Source: an uncultured SAR86 cluster bacterium (lineage in GTDB: Bacteria; Pseudomonadota; Gammaproteobacteria; Magnimaribacterales; D2472). From it: a DNA stretch of 60,886 nucleotides. The DNA lies in contig CACPCZ010000006.1 in the NCBI GenBank assembly GCA_902632555.1, forward strand, positions 1-60,886, read 5' to 3'. The translations under genes and the position numbers were made by a program. Below are positions 24,825-32,769 of the stretch, piece after piece. The notes under the pieces are model-generated. The model ran no database searches. It had not been told where the DNA came from and was given only the letters and a program-made list of their open reading frames with translations. Every line of letters begins with the position of its first letter. Position 1 is the stretch's first letter.

Positions 24825-24850
24825 AAGGGAGCTTTTGCTCCCTTTTTTTT
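24825..24850 (+). terminator. Terminator of exported-family member 2
   Basis: AAGGGAGC-TTTT-GCTCCCTT with a run of T. It is nearly identical to the hairpin at 22967. Confidence 0.93.
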
Positions 24851-24862
24851 TGAAAACCAAAT

Positions 24863-26002
24863 ATGCATAATACAGATGTGACAAAATATGATAAACATAT
24901 AGCTATTATTGGTGCTGGTATATCAGGCTTAACTCTTGGTATTTCCTTAAAACTAAATAATATTCCATGTGTGATTTTTGAGAAATCCCCAACAGTTAGT
25001 GAACATGGCGCAGGAATATCAATTTCACCCAATGGTAAACATATTTTGAGTAAATTAAATATTCTTGACGAGCTTAAAAAGGTATCAGGCAATACAAGTG
25101 AAACAATATTCTTTTCTAATTTAAAAGAAATTACAAGGATATCATCTGATGTATTAACTACATCTAGAAAAAGCCTATATGATATTTTGTTAAGTAAATA
25201 TATCTCTCTTGATGGTGAAATTCACTTTAACAGCGAACTAGAAAAAATAGATCTAGATCTAAAAGAGATTTCTTTAAAAAATGATAAAAGTTTTAATGTA
25301 GGTCATATAGCATCATGTGATGGAATTAAATCAATATGTAGATCAAAAGCTATAGACCCAAGCTTCCCAAAATATAGTGGATATTCTGTATGGAGATCAA
25401 TCATCAACCAAAAACAATCTCACATAGGTTTCTATCTAGGTGCAGGCTTTCATATTGTTTCATATCCAATAAACAACGAGCAGACAAGTTTTGTTGCAGC
25501 CGTAAAAACAAATAATCAAACAAGGGAATCATGGATGACAAAAGGATCATATTCTGATCTTCAAGATGATATTCCAAAAGAAATTCTTCAAAAATTTAAC
25601 AGCCTTAAATCTAGTGAAATATATAAATGGGGAGTTTTTGTGAGACCAAAGACAAGAATTTTATTTAAAAAAAATGTTACTTTTTTTGGCGATGCTGCTC
25701 ATCCAATTGTTCCTTTTATTGGGCAAGGTGGATGTCTGGCAATTGAAGATGCTTATGTTTTCTCAAATCTTTATATAAAAAATAACTATAATATTTCCAA
25801 AACTCAGGAAGAATATCAATTAATTAGATTAGATCGTATTAATAAAATAACTAAATCGTCTCAAAATCAAGGGAAACTAAATCATTTAAAAAATCCTTTT
25901 TTGGTATTTTCAAGGAACTTTCTTATGAAAAATACAAATATAATCAAATACATGACTAAAAACATATGGGGATATAGACCTGAAAATGATATTCATTTTT
26001 AG
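24863..26002 (+). CDS. FAD-dependent aromatic-hydroxylase-like monooxygenase
   Basis: The 379-residue protein is a class A flavoprotein monooxygenase of the UbiH/salicylate-hydroxylase fold. It has an N-terminal FAD motif IAIIGAGISGLTLGISLK (about 10-27), the GAGISISPNG block and the C-terminal FAD-ribityl motif FFGDAAHPIVPFIGQGGCLA (about 274-293) with the conserved Gly-Asp. Such enzymes insert one oxygen into aromatic or similar substrates using NAD(P)H. The substrate cannot be assigned; ubiquinone synthesis is possible but no ubi gene is adjacent. It stands alone upstream of malate synthase. Confidence 0.88.
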   Translation: MHNTDVTKYDKHIAIIGAGISGLTLGISLKLNNIPCVIFEKSPTVSEHGAGISISPNGKHILSKLNILDELKKVSGNTSETIFFSNLKEITRISSDVLTTSRKSLYDILLSKYISLDGEIHFNSELEKIDLDLKEISLKNDKSFNVGHIASCDGIKSICRSKAIDPSFPKYSGYSVWRSIINQKQSHIGFYLGAGFHIVSYPINNEQTSFVAAVKTNNQTRESWMTKGSYSDLQDDIPKEILQKFNSLKSSEIYKWGVFVRPKTRILFKKNVTFFGDAAHPIVPFIGQGGCLAIEDAYVFSNLYIKNNYNISKTQEEYQLIRLDRINKITKSSQNQGKLNHLKNPFLVFSRNFLMKNTNIIKYMTKNIWGYRPENDIHF

Positions 26003-28264: not shown

Positions 28265-28552
28265 ATGAAAAAAGGATATTGGGTGGTTAGAGCAAATATT
28301 TCTGATAAATATGAATACTCTAAATATATTGAATTAGCCTCAAAAGTTATTCAAAAATATGATGGCAAATTCCTTGTTAGAGGCGGTTCTCAGATAGAAT
28401 TCGAAAAAGATGGGTTCGAAAGGACTGTTGTGGTTGAATTTGCAAGTCACCAACAAGCATTAAATTGTTACGAATCTAAGGGATATCAGTCTGCTCTAGA
28501 TTATGTTAAGAATTCAGCCGTAAGATATGTTTCTGTTGTAGAAGGGTATTAA
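28265..28552 (+). CDS. DUF1330 family protein
   Basis: The 95-residue protein begins KGYWVVRANISD and shows the dimeric alpha/beta barrel pattern of DUF1330: KYDGKFLVRGGSQIEFE, TVVVEFASHQQALNCYES and a closing VKNSAVRYVSVVEGY. Family members are small, probably dimeric proteins of unknown function. It starts one base after the glcB stop, so it is almost certainly co-transcribed with malate synthase. Its end overlaps the convergent indoleamine dioxygenase gene by four bases. Confidence 0.9.
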   Translation: MKKGYWVVRANISDKYEYSKYIELASKVIQKYDGKFLVRGGSQIEFEKDGFERTVVVEFASHQQALNCYESKGYQSALDYVKNSAVRYVSVVEGY

Positions 28553-29691
28553 ATTTTTTGATTGTGAGTTTCATCTCTGTGTTTCTTGAGATATTTCATA
28601 AAAGGTGTTCCGCCGGTTCCTCTTACTGTTGATCCTCCAGATCCAATATCACTAGTCACTTGCGCTTGTTTATGAATATAAGTTGCAGCATATTCAAGAT
28701 GCTGAGCCCTAAACTTTCTTATTTCTTCAAGACATTGATTATAGATTTCTGTAAGGCACTTAGATTTATGAATTATATCTTTTGCCTTAGATTTTTTTTC
28801 AACCTTTTCAATCATCTCTCTATGATGAGGCGGCATATATTCTCTCATCTCATTTAAATAATGCCTTAAGTTATCATTTGTGTGATAAATACCCAATGCA
28901 CCATCTAAAAATGGAATAATGCTACTTTGAGCTCCAGTCTCTCCTCTGAAAAACTGTGGCTCATTATTAAATTGATTTTCATAAATTAGCCCATCTTTTA
29001 AATCGGGATTATCTTTTGTTCCGAATATATATGGCCTAACCCTATGATAATAAACATATGGGTCACATTTTTCTGGCATTTTAGAAAAGATGCTATTTAC
29101 CTTTATAAGAGACTTCTTTATTCTTTTTAATTCTTTTGAAAATTCACTATCTAAATTTTTGCTGTCCAAGTGTGCCAATTTATATGCTGCATCAATCGCA
29201 TCACTTGCAGCATCTTCAATACAAACGTGGATTGTAACAAACCAATCCTCATCAACACCCCCTAGAAAATTATTTATTAGAGCCACATTATCAAGGGAGA
29301 TAGGTTCAGAATTATCAATTTTATACCAATTATCTAAGCAATAACTTGCGTAGCTTAGAATCGGCGGCCTTCCTAAATATTGAGACAATTTTACCCATGG
29401 TTCAGATATAACTTCTGGAAGGATTGGTTCTGGATTTTTACCTCCCCACATATATGCATGAGCAATAAAACTGATATGTGACATTGCTAGGTTTATCTCT
29501 TGAATATTATTTTGTTTAATAATTTCATCAACAGAAAAATCTTTTTTATTCAATTTAAGAATTGTTTTTTGAACCTTGTTAGTTAAAAGTAATTTTGGTA
29601 AATGTGAAGCAATGTTTGAAATATTATTTAATGTTTTGGACTCAGTCTTATATGACATTATGGGGTCTTTTTTTGGAAGAAAAGTGTGCAT
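28549..29691 (-). CDS. Indoleamine 2,3-dioxygenase family protein
   Basis: The protein (380 residues, or 369 if it starts at 29658) matches the heme dioxygenase that opens the indole ring of tryptophan or similar indoles. It has LGRPPILSYASYCLDNW, FFRGETGAQSSIIPFLDGAL, MREYMPPHHR and the C-terminal FRAQHLEYAATYI, in which His 331 is the likely heme-iron ligand, then GTGGTPFMKYLKKHRDET. Bacterial members exist but are less common than tryptophan 2,3-dioxygenase. No kynureninase or formamidase is adjacent, so the pathway is unclear. The start is uncertain because neither ATG has a clear ribosome site. Confidence 0.9.
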   Translation of the reverse strand: MHTFLPKKDPIMSYKTESKTLNNISNIASHLPKLLLTNKVQKTILKLNKKDFSVDEIIKQNNIQEINLAMSHISFIAHAYMWGGKNPEPILPEVISEPWVKLSQYLGRPPILSYASYCLDNWYKIDNSEPISLDNVALINNFLGGVDEDWFVTIHVCIEDAASDAIDAAYKLAHLDSKNLDSEFSKELKRIKKSLIKVNSIFSKMPEKCDPYVYYHRVRPYIFGTKDNPDLKDGLIYENQFNNEPQFFRGETGAQSSIIPFLDGALGIYHTNDNLRHYLNEMREYMPPHHREMIEKVEKKSKAKDIIHKSKCLTEIYNQCLEEIRKFRAQHLEYAATYIHKQAQVTSDIGSGGSTVRGTGGTPFMKYLKKHRDETHNQKI

Positions 29692-29790
29692 AACATTTAT
29701 ATAATAAACTCATAAAATTAATAAATACAACATGTTTTTTTGTACTTAAAAAATTAATTAAAAAAAAGTATATTTTTTTACAAAAAAGTG

Positions 29791-29818
29791 TTGACAAGTT
29801 TTCTAATAGGAGTAATAT
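29791..29818 (+). promoter_or_regulatory. Strong promoter of the structured RNA candidate
   Basis: A consensus TTGACA at 29791-29796 and TAATAT at 29813-29818 with 16-base spacing. It is preceded by A/T tracts (29700-29790) that could act as an UP-like element. The predicted start is near 29825. Confidence 0.8.
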
Positions 29819-29824
29819 TAAATA

Positions 29825-30046
29825 TACCAACGGCAACCGACTAGTGACCAACTGCAGACGGGAGACCTAGAGAGAAGCTGAAGGAAGAGACCGAAGGGTG
29901 AAAGCATTTACAAGAGTCGGCGATAAAAAAGAGCTTGTAAATCCACCAAGAGTTCAAGAGAAAGAACTCAAGGAGCTAAAGAAAATCTCACTTTAGACCC
30001 CTAAGGAACTCGATTAAGAAAACAGAGTTTAACTCTGTTTTTTTTT
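29825..30046 (+). ncRNA. Structured RNA candidate upstream of aceE
   Basis: This 440-base gap between genes holds an approximately 220-nt GA-rich, non-coding transcript with a consensus promoter and a terminator. Visible pairings are ATTTACAAG (29906-29914) with CTTGTAAAT (29934-29942); AGTCGG in that loop with CCGACT at 29837-29842 (a pseudoknot); GAGTTC (29950-29955) with GAACTC (29964-29969 or 30006-30011); and CTAAAG (29976-29981) with CTTTAG (29991-29996). AACTC at 30007-30011 could also pair with GAGTT in the terminator. I could not match it to 6S, tmRNA, RNase P, SRP, CsrB or a known riboswitch. It may be a stand-alone RNA or a cis-regulator of aceE. Confidence 0.65.
30021..30046 (+). 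terminator. Terminator of the structured RNA
   Basis: AACAGAG/CTCTGTT stem with a TTTAA loop and nine T. It lies 87 bases before the aceE start. Confidence 0.93.
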
Positions 30047-30132
30047 GCCTTAAAAAAACTAAATTATTCAATTTTAAATTATAAAAATTCCATCTAAAAT
30101 ACTGTAAACTTGTTTTATCATGGGAGTTTTAA

Positions 30133-32769
30133 TTGTCAGATAAAGATATTGATCCAATTGAAACTTCTGAGTGGCTTGAGGCTATAAATAGCGTAATTGA
30201 AGAGGAAGGTATTGATCGAGCTTCATTTTTATTATCTAAGTTAGCAAAAAAACTCAATCAAGAGGGCGCAATTCCATCATATAATCTTACGACTCCATTT
30301 AAAAACTCTATACCCTTAAAGGAAGAAGCCCCAATGCCAGGCGATCTTTTTATGGAAAGGAAAATAAGATCACTAATCCGTTGGAATGCTCTTGTCATGG
30401 TTCTAAAAGCAAACATGAATGATGATGAATTGGGAGGACATATCTCAACTTTTTCGTCTGCTGCAACACTATATGATGTTGGTTTTAATTATTTCTTCAG
30501 AGGCTCAAATGGCCAACTTGAAGATATGGTTTATTATCAAGGGCATTGCTCACCAGGTATATATGCAAGGAGCTACCTTGAGGGATATTTGAATGAAGAC
30601 GATCTAGATAATTTTAGACAAGAAGTTCATAAACCAGGATTATCATCTTATCCACATCCCTGGCTAATGCCGGATTATTGGCAATTTCCTGTGGTTTCAA
30701 TGGGGTTAGGTCCAATACTTGGGATATATCAAGCACATGTCATGAGATATTTATCAGCAAGAGGACTTGTACCGAGAAATGACAGAAAAGTATGGGTTTT
30801 TTGTGGCGATGGTGAGATGGATGAGCCAGAGTCTAAAGGAGCTATTGGCCTTGCGGGTCGAGAACAATTAGAAAATCTGATATTTGTTGTGAACTGCAAT
30901 CTCCAAAGACTTGATGGACCAGTAAGAGGAAATGGGAAAATTATTCAAGAATTAGAAGGCGCATTCAGAGGTGAAGGCTGGAATGTTATCAAAGTTGTTT
31001 GGGGAAGATTTTGGGATCCAATAATGGCAAAAGATACAGAAGGCAAATTACAAGATTTAATGGATGTGGTGGTTGACGGAGAGCTGCAAAATTTCAAAGC
31101 AAAAGGAGGCGCATATACAAGAGAGAATTTTTTTGCAAAAGATCCTGATGTTTTAGAAATGGTAAAAGATTTATCCGATGATGATATTTATAAACTTAAC
31201 AGAGGGGGGCATGATCCTTATAAGGTATATGCCGCTTATCACAAAGCTGTAAATTCTGAGGGAGCTCCAACTGTAATACTTGCTCTCACAACCAAAGGTT
31301 ACGGAACAGGCTCAAGAGAGGCAGATAATACAACACATCAAGTTAAAAAATTATCTATGGATAATATCAAATCATTTAGAGACAAATTTAATATACCGGT
31401 TTCAGACTCTGAAATTGTAAAACTACCATATGTTAGACCGCCAGATAATTCTCCAGAAATACAATATCTTAAAAAAACCAGGAAAAAGCTTGGTGGATAT
31501 ATTCCAAGAAGAAGAATGTCATCAGAAGCTTTACCAATGCCTGACAATAAAATATTTGAAAAATTACATGAATCAAGTGGAGATAGAAAAATATCAACTA
31601 CTATGGCAATTGTGAGATTAATTACTGATTTGTTAAAAGATAGTGAAATAGGTGAAAGAATTGTTCCTATTGTTCCTGATGAAGCTAGAACTTTTGGAAT
31701 GGAAGCATTATTTCGACAGGTTGGAATTTACTCCTCAGCTGGTCAAAAATATGAGCCAGAAGATGCTGATAAAGTGATGTGGTACAAAGAGTCAAAAGAT
31801 GGAGTGATGCTAGAGGAAGGAATCACAGAAGCAGGTGCATTTAGTGCTTGGACTGCATTAGCTACAGCATATTCAAATTATGACTTTCCAATGATCCCAT
31901 TTTATCTTTTTTATTCGATGTTCGGATTTCAAAGAGTTCATGATTTATCATGGGCTGCAGGTGACGCACAAGCTAAAGGTTTTCTAATAGGAGCAACTTC
32001 TGGAAGAACAACCTTAAATGGTGAGGGTCTTCAGCATCAAGATGGACATAGCCATATTCTTTCATCAACAATACCCAATTGTTTATCTTATGATCCTGCA
32101 TTTGCATATGAAGTTGCTGCGATTGTCAAAAATGGCATTAAAGAAATGTTTGTTGAACAGAAAAATTATTTCTATTACATAACTACAATTAATGAAAATT
32201 ACTCACATCCACAAATGCCAGAAGGCTCTGAGTCAGGAATTATCAAAGGAATGTACAAATTAAAAGGTGAAGAGAATGCTCAAATAAGGCTTCTTGGTTC
32301 CGGTGCTATTTTAAGGGAAGCAATAAAAGCAAAAGAATTATTAGAGAAGTTCAACATTAAAGCAGAGGTTTGGAGTGTAACAAGTTTTAATTTATTGAGA
32401 AAAGATGGAATGGAAGTAGAAAGATTAAATCAACTAAACCCTAGAATAAATCCAAGTTTATCGTACGTCGAGCAATGTTTTTCTGATAATGATATTCCTG
32501 TTATTGCTGCCACTGACTATATGCGTTCATATTCTGAGCAAATCAGACCCTATATTAAGTCTATGTTCTTTACTTTAGGAACAGATGGATATGGAAGAAG
32601 CGATTCAAGAGAAACATTAAGAGATTTTTTTGAAGTTGACTCAAAGAGCATTTCAAGAGCAGCAGCATACGCCTTGTATAAAACAAAAATTATTTCAGAG
32701 GATCAAATAATTGATATTTATAAAACTTTGAAAGTTGATTCATCCAAGCCCAATCCCTGGGAAGTCTGA
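30133..32769 (+). CDS. aceE: Pyruvate dehydrogenase E1 component (homodimeric type)
   Basis: AceE decarboxylates pyruvate with thiamine diphosphate and acetylates the lipoyl group of AceF. The 878-residue length and sequence match the single-chain E1 of gammaproteobacteria: HISTFSSAATLYDVGFNYFF, the ThDP motif GDGEMDEPES with downstream NCNLQRLDGPV, and the C-terminal GRSDSRETLRDFFEVD. The start is a TTG at 30133 with a GGGAG ribosome site (30122-30126). The upstream terminator and RNA candidate may control it. It overlaps aceF by one base. Confidence 0.97.
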   Translation: MSDKDIDPIETSEWLEAINSVIEEEGIDRASFLLSKLAKKLNQEGAIPSYNLTTPFKNSIPLKEEAPMPGDLFMERKIRSLIRWNALVMVLKANMNDDELGGHISTFSSAATLYDVGFNYFFRGSNGQLEDMVYYQGHCSPGIYARSYLEGYLNEDDLDNFRQEVHKPGLSSYPHPWLMPDYWQFPVVSMGLGPILGIYQAHVMRYLSARGLVPRNDRKVWVFCGDGEMDEPESKGAIGLAGREQLENLIFVVNCNLQRLDGPVRGNGKIIQELEGAFRGEGWNVIKVVWGRFWDPIMAKDTEGKLQDLMDVVVDGELQNFKAKGGAYTRENFFAKDPDVLEMVKDLSDDDIYKLNRGGHDPYKVYAAYHKAVNSEGAPTVILALTTKGYGTGSREADNTTHQVKKLSMDNIKSFRDKFNIPVSDSEIVKLPYVRPPDNSPEIQYLKKTRKKLGGYIPRRRMSSEALPMPDNKIFEKLHESSGDRKISTTMAIVRLITDLLKDSEIGERIVPIVPDEARTFGMEALFRQVGIYSSAGQKYEPEDADKVMWYKESKDGVMLEEGITEAGAFSAWTALATAYSNYDFPMIPFYLFYSMFGFQRVHDLSWAAGDAQAKGFLIGATSGRTTLNGEGLQHQDGHSHILSSTIPNCLSYDPAFAYEVAAIVKNGIKEMFVEQKNYFYYITTINENYSHPQMPEGSESGIIKGMYKLKGEENAQIRLLGSGAILREAIKAKELLEKFNIKAEVWSVTSFNLLRKDGMEVERLNQLNPRINPSLSYVEQCFSDNDIPVIAATDYMRSYSEQIRPYIKSMFFTLGTDGYGRSDSRETLRDFFEVDSKSISRAAAYALYKTKIISEDQIIDIYKTLKVDSSKPNPWEV

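Follow-up and report, generated by a model that had tools for sequence, protein, structure and literature searches.

Among structured bacterial RNAs, OLE, GOLLD and ROOL have been shown to form homo-oligomers, and in PMC12286853 particular contacts, viz. B3 in loop L9.3 of OLE and B8 in loop L21a of GOLLD, are argued from the covariation of adjacent bases and were seen by cryo-electron microscopy. That paper contains no mention of 'imes', and the subject of the present analysis is IMES-1, the RNA that occupies the gap upstream of aceE in a 60,886-nt stretch of DNA from an uncultured SAR86 cluster bacterium (contig CACPCZ010000006.1 of assembly GCA_902632555.1; the whole stretch is called the window below). 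We consider it likely, from comparison of its relatives, that IMES-1 is a structured RNA, transcribed and terminated on its own, whose molecules associate with one another through symmetric kissing loops, at the loop of hairpin P4 and probably also at that of hairpin P2. IMES-1 is a small RNA of SAR86 ocean bacteria that is reportedly abundant in sea-water RNA and highly expressed; its founding papers are reportedly Weinberg 2009 and Shi 2009, and we know of no function assigned to it since its discovery in sea-water sequences. Within the library searched, the IMES names gave no paper about these RNAs, one giant squid genome paper containing 'IMES-2' once, and the available parts of PMC5069720, PMC13414033 and PMC8131839 do not name them.

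The RNA was identified by scanning the entire window against Rfam, which gave a full-length match far above the gathering score, although a preliminary description made from the letters alone had stated that the element fits none of the common RNA families. The RNA and the two loop segments on which the argument turns lie as follows, where f1 is the family of the window genome and f3 and f4 are two of the other three families of the order.

29831..30022, plus strand: IMES-1 RNA (RF02034), full model length, positions 1-191 (197.1 bits, E 9.4e-45, gathering score 81)
29916..29921, plus strand: self-complementary hexamer GTCGGC (with G-U) in the P4 loop, proposed kissing-loop self-contact, from family alignments and a register scan
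29852..29857, plus strand: palindrome CTGCAG in the P2 loop, proposed second self-contact; CUGCAG in 89/89 f1 and 14/14 f4 distinct copies, CUCGAG in 28/28 f3 distinct copies

The draft genome of the window has one copy. Across 203 genomes of the order, 128 have an IMES-1 match at E <= 0.001 and 121 have one above the cut-off; among the matches listed, IMES-1 is present in 84 of 107 genomes of f1, 25 of 35 of f3 and 15 of 21 of f4, with four weak matches among the 40 genomes of f2, the family totals being inferred from genome handle ranges. In a class-wide draw it was found in 3 of 369 genomes, all three within this order. For comparison 147 copies were taken from 121 genomes, those of G061, G070 and G096, with partial or weak matches, not being among them; ten of the 147 were excluded from the sets of distinct copies on account of contig ends or N.

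In family alignments made with MAFFT, which is blind to palindromes, and with G-U pairs allowed, the hexamer of the P4 loop is self-complementary at one alignment position in 131 of 131 distinct complete copies (f1 89/89, f3 28/28, f4 14/14), and this holds through 12 different hexamers, eight kinds in f1 and four each in f3 and f4: GUCGAC, GUCGAU, GUCGGC, GUAUAC, GUUAAC, GUGCAU, GUUGAC, GUGCGC, GCUAGC, GGUACC, GCAUGC and GCCGGC. At 17 other registers in f1 (-8 to +9), none or one of the 89 copies is self-complementary, except for 37 at -8, where the bases lie mostly in the stem. Formal counts used diverse picks, i.e. 46 distinct f1 hairpins (A2), 12 f4 hairpins (A3) and, for the whole structure, 35 f1 copies (A4), with f3 covered by the alignment count of hexamer and palindrome alone; they gave 100% of 138 cells paired for the f1 hexamer, compared with 8-46% at slides of one to two columns. 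The centre pair in f1 is CG, GC, AU, UA or UG, i.e. all four Watson-Crick forms and UG, and in f4 pair 2-5 is C-G or U-A while pair 3-4 is A-U, C-G or U-A. When the hexamer columns are left out of the tree of the 89 f1 copies, parsimony counts on it about 14 hexamer changes, six of them in the centre, and all eight states are self-complementary. In genomes with two copies, both carry the same P4 hexamer in 24 of 26 cases and the remaining two pairs are, in our reading, mutually complementary via G-U. In this comparison the pattern missed the register of the f3/f4 hexamer by one base in 9 of the 147 copies, which the alignments place correctly. The preliminary description had picked out this loop because its AGTCGG could pair with CCGACT upstream; the loop is special, but by virtue of its self-complementarity.

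When every position was scanned, two sites proved self-complementary in every copy of the three families, viz. the P4 hexamer and the P2-loop palindrome. Comparison of the copies shows that both loops are self-complementary and that adjacent bases of the P4 loop covary between palindromes, the same kind of evidence as was used for the homo-oligomers OLE and GOLLD. Since neighbouring bases cannot pair within one chain, such covariation points to a contact between molecules. The P4 hexamer of one IMES-1 would pair with the same hexamer of another molecule in the cell, the P2-loop palindrome would probably supply a second symmetric contact, and the resulting dimer or larger RNA assembly may serve as a scaffold, whether for structure or for binding; on this view IMES-1 would be neither an attenuator nor an RNA that depends on Hfq or CsrA. 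The dimer initiation hairpin of retroviruses likewise has a six-base self-complementary loop between purines; it differs in being a packaging element of a viral genome, and no common descent with IMES-1 is suggested. The likeness to OLE, GOLLD and ROOL lies in symmetric kissing loops for which palindromes with covarying neighbouring bases are the evidence, as set out in PMC12286853, while IMES-1 is unlike them in its size of about 190-220 nt and in that its oligomeric state is a prediction. If the proposed self-association is correct, IMES-1, small and from a marine lineage that is widespread, would take its place beside these RNAs, and the loops give it a concrete, testable physical property, namely self-association.

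Several observations weigh against this proposal. The P2 hexamer has two states alone, the copy L205, on a 3.2-kb contig filed under Bdellovibrionota, has AUGCAG there with the outer pair broken, and invariant palindromes also occur in single families, viz. UUCGAA in f3 and AGAUCU as well as GAGCUU (with a G-U pair) in f4, so that an invariant palindrome alone proves little. In the P4 loop, 55 of the 89 f1 hexamers are Watson-Crick throughout and the other 34 rely on a G-U pair, and some kisses would therefore be weak; moreover, in f1 pair 3-4 is the only one to have changed on both sides, pairs 1-6 and 2-5 varying by G-U alone. Shuffling of columns leaves 65 of the 89 copies self-complementary on average and at most 75 (2000 trials), because most copies share the same bases and the base rate is high, and the hexamer case thus depends on a small number of changes. 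More than 90% pairing is also seen at slides of -3 and +3, on one pair together with nearly invariant columns and with low covariation. Finally, a different RNA carrying the same sequence could be the partner of the hexamers, and in f3 IMES-5 has the same CUCGAG loop.

The proposed contacts sit on a well-kept secondary structure, whose helices are shown by comparison of the 35 f1 copies.

29831..29880, plus strand: P1 helix around P2 (29831-29834/29877-29880), the weakest helix; 77.7% paired, 4/4 pairs changed on both sides
29841..29870, plus strand: P2 hairpin (29841-29844/29867-29870); 98.3% paired, 4/4 pairs changed on both sides
29891..30006, plus strand: P3 helix closing the P4-P5-P6 junction (29891-29892, 29895-29897 with 30000-30002, 30005-30006); 94.1% paired, 1/5 pairs changed on both sides
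29906..29942, plus strand: P4 hairpin, 9 bp (29906-29914/29934-29942); 98.7% paired, 6/9 pairs changed on both sides
29950..29969, plus strand: P5 hairpin, loop GAGA 29958-29961; 90.7% paired, 5/6 pairs changed on both sides
29976..29996, plus strand: P6 hairpin, loop UCUC 29986-29989, proposed partner of the P5 loop; from comparative pairing counts

Taken together, P1-P6, the terminator and the P4 hexamer have 94.5% of cells paired, with 25 of 43 pairs changed on both sides, compared with 26-48% when slid by one to three columns, and the predicted transcript folds better than shuffled sequences (-56.3 against a mean of -42.9, standard deviation 4.0, z -3.3). The RNA, of about 220 nt with its own transcription and termination, folds as P1/P2 followed by a P3-closed junction bearing P4, P5 and P6; invariance is also common at unpaired positions beyond the loops. 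Pairing between the P5 and P6 loops is probable, as GAGA can pair with UCUC, or with a changed version of it, in 87 of 89 f1 copies (two not read) and in all of the f4 copies (14 of 14); in f3 it can do so in 18 of 28, with four not read and six lacking the pairing. Compensation here is confined to few copies, with one change of G-C to A-U and GAAGA:UCUUC in one f3 copy; a fifth pair is U-A or A-U in 10 of the 35 f1 copies and unpaired in 25. The consensus hairpins of RF02034 are kept, the match of the window copy being full-length, and the nested structure of the Rfam model leaves the loops of P2, P4, P5 and P6 unpaired, a notation of this kind being unable to show pseudoknots or intermolecular contacts; the symmetric loop contacts proposed from the alignments are added here to that consensus.

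The hairpin (29906-29914/29934-29942), the AGTCGG in its loop (29915-29920), the CCGACT upstream (29837-29842), the GAGTTC with two possible partners (29950-29955) and the AACTC (30007-30011) opposite GAGTT in the 5' arm of the terminator (30025-30029) had all been pointed out in the preliminary description, and all are present in the sequence. It had suggested looking for compensatory changes in relatives, and these do maintain the family hairpins, i.e. P1, P2, P4, P5, P6 and the terminator hairpin, but neither the pseudoknot nor the antitermination pairing that it had proposed. Of the 89 distinct f1 copies, 7 can form the six pairs of CCGACT:AGTCGG and 56 at least five; the share of paired cells, 76.2%, equals the 76.1% of shuffles, and there is no covariation. 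The five pairs of AACTC:GAGTT, which would have blocked termination, are complete in 3 of 77 distinct f1 copies, a further 12 having escaped the pattern, again with no covariation. As for the alternative partners of GAGTTC, the P5 hairpin has changes on both sides in five of its six pairs, whereas pairing with the second partner, a 3' GAACTC, is weak at best: it reaches 73.0% against 68.0% in shuffles, a value attained by 0 of 500, but 13 of 500 shuffles match its covariation score, and shifting it by -3 gives stronger covariation. Pairing of the P2 hexamer with the invariant 3' CUCGA was also considered by eye, being possible in f3 and ruled out in f1 and f4.

The transcription unit is bounded by signals of its own, which had been described before, together with the GA-rich non-coding stretch and the hairpin between them, and are all in place.

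29791..29818, plus strand: promoter-like site TTGACA-16-TAATAT, near-consensus (TTGACA 29791-29796, 16-nt spacer, TAATAT 29813-29818)
30021..30046, plus strand: intrinsic terminator, hairpin and T-run, read from the sequence and kept in relatives
30133..32769, plus strand: aceE, downstream neighbour outside the IMES-1 unit (TIGR00759, 1324 bits)

A consensus scan of 29500-30400 listed no terminator, yet the hairpin and T-run are plain in the sequence, and a terminator-like hairpin with a T-run follows 144 of the 147 copies, two of the remaining three being cut by contig ends. Promoters with at least 9 of 12 matches precede 94 of 95 scorable f1 copies, 9 of 28 f3 copies and 0 of 16 f4 copies, and for this reason the promoters of f3 and f4 are weaker or of another type. 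The surroundings differ between families: f1 copies adjoin many kinds of gene, 24 of 28 f3 copies share a single gene cluster on the upstream side and a single one on the downstream side, and 16 of 16 f4 copies lie between two other clusters, the downstream gene of f4 being presumably prephenate dehydratase-like, judged from the printed sequences. The gene aceE lies downstream of 4 of the 147 fetched copies, 139 of which have a readable downstream open reading frame.

The IMES-1 model cross-matches IMES-5 at 27-35 bits, under the threshold of 81, and the weak f2 matches led to a model, R1, which matches 48 of the 203 genomes, 27 in f2, 21 in f3 and none in f1 or f4; Rfam names the R1 loci IMES-5 (RF02995) in 11 of the 11 loci given, out of 48. 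IMES-5 resembles IMES-1 in a 5' hairpin whose loop is CUCGAG in 47 of 48 copies and CUAGAG in the last, in a segment like GGGUGAAA and, by eye, in a loop pairing of the P5-P6 kind, and differs from it in a P4-like loop that by eye has no conserved palindrome and in its occurrence in f2 and f3. Its loop-loop pairing, which resembles P5-P6, seems by eye to change in step at L034, L037 and L240 (GGGU:GCCC, GGUU:GACC and AGGU:ACCU). Among the matches listed, and by our own row count, 35 of the 40 genomes that are at least 90% complete have IMES-1 or IMES-5, neither being among those matches in G026, G034, G040, G050 and G120. In several f3 genomes IMES-5 lies about 13-14 kb from IMES-1, e.g. at G151:C1:11546-11708 and 24826-25017, and again at G176:C1:839939-840097 and 826103-826289.

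SAR86 has an unusually bare set of RNA regulators across the 203 genomes: Hfq (PF17209) was found in none, with 5 of 14 control genomes positive, and CsrA was found in 63, confined to f2 and f3, i.e. in 0 of 107 f1 genomes, the window genome included, and 0 of 21 of f4. IMES-5 and CsrA are thus confined to the same two families; IMES-5 might be a CsrA sponge, although its GGA motifs are not kept when judged by eye. IMES-1 is not 6S RNA (RF00013) or its stand-in, as 6S lies at another locus in the window genome and is present in 185 of the 203 genomes, nor does it stand in for RNase P RNA or transfer-messenger RNA, each of which has its own gene in 16 of 16 genomes tested. In 16 genomes (G000 and 15 others, from all four families, 15 of them at least 90% complete), the bacterial small RNA of the signal recognition particle (SRP; RF00169) was not found, with 11 of 14 control genomes positive, and neither was the M domain of Ffh (PF02978), with 14 of 14 controls positive. 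A role for IMES-1 as stand-in for SRP RNA is highly improbable, as the Ffh M domain is also not found and no SRP-like domain IV is seen by eye; SAR86 may have lost the SRP. The available part of PMC8321541 names SAR86 for a SecA sequence alone.

Considering what else could account for the self-complementary loops, they might be seeds for another RNA, either a messenger or a small RNA such as IMES-5, with IMES-1 as a trans-acting regulator. That f3 has both RNAs, with the same CUCGAG loop in all but one IMES-5 copy, speaks for this, yet both palindromes are kept in f1 and f4, where R1 matched nothing, a foreign partner would not require the loop to remain self-complementary while it changes, and no Hfq was found, which together make such a seed role unlikely. 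The loops could also be incidental, with palindromes that matter little and an IMES-1 that acts singly, perhaps as the ligand of a protein; the many invariant unpaired positions outside the loops are indeed what protein- or ligand-binding RNAs show; this is nevertheless improbable given that the property is kept in every distinct copy through 12 sequences. Palindromes are typical of DNA sites for proteins as well, but a hexamer that changes 12 ways and sits in the loop of a covarying hairpin makes a very poor candidate for such a site, and we think this reading decidedly less probable than a monomeric RNA.

The preliminary description had left the choice between an abundant stand-alone RNA and an attenuator, or leader, that would control aceE by alternative pairings. 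What suggested the latter is that this one copy precedes aceE and could form such pairings; we give it hardly any credence, because aceE follows so few copies and the neighbours differ between families, as those of f3 and f4 do, while the terminator is kept beside these other genes and the alternative pairings are not conserved. IMES-1 is a stand-alone transcription unit; of the earlier interpretation, the structured RNA bounded by a promoter and a terminator of its own stands, whereas the lack of fit to any common family, the attenuator, the pseudoknot and the antitermination do not. Equally hard to credit is a CsrA-titrating sponge of the CsrB/RsmZ type or an Hfq-dependent small RNA, which GGA motifs in unpaired stretches and a U-rich terminator might suggest: CsrA was not found in f1 and f4, nor Hfq in any genome, and in f3, where CsrA occurs, IMES-1 may have a role with CsrA. 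Several easy explanations, viz. a 6S stand-in, a CsrA sponge in f1, an Hfq RNA and an aceE leader, are removed. One extension, which we put forward tentatively and think somewhat more apt to fail than to hold, is an assembly of RNA only, in which the self-complementary loops of P4 and P2 would build a double-kissed dimer, or rings, cages or filaments, with IMES-5 of f3 joining through CUCGAG. Such an assembly would make IMES-1 a small homo-oligomer of ocean bacteria whose genomes gave no match to Hfq and, for two of the four families, none to CsrA.

IMES-1 lies at contig ends in several drafts (G061:C62, G115:C4, G128:C2, G041:C4, G052:C80 and G088:C7); a repeated RNA seems to break assemblies, and the copy numbers given here are probably underestimates. 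No virus-borne IMES-1 was found, two patterns giving 0 matches in viral_contigs. One f1/f3 pattern, which misses divergent copies, found 67 stretches in genome_contigs, 59 titled SAR86 and eight otherwise (Gammaproteobacteria three; Pseudomonadota, Woeseiaceae, Neomarinimicrobiota, Flavobacteriales and Bdellovibrionota one each), for which misbinning is a possible explanation.

In the window, the locus is flanked by genes for malate synthase G, a DUF1330 protein and a minus-strand protein of the indoleamine 2,3-dioxygenase family, with aceE and then the gene for pyruvate dehydrogenase E2 downstream. The indoleamine 2,3-dioxygenase family protein (28549-29691, minus strand; PF01231, 286 bits) is encoded two genes from malate synthase G.

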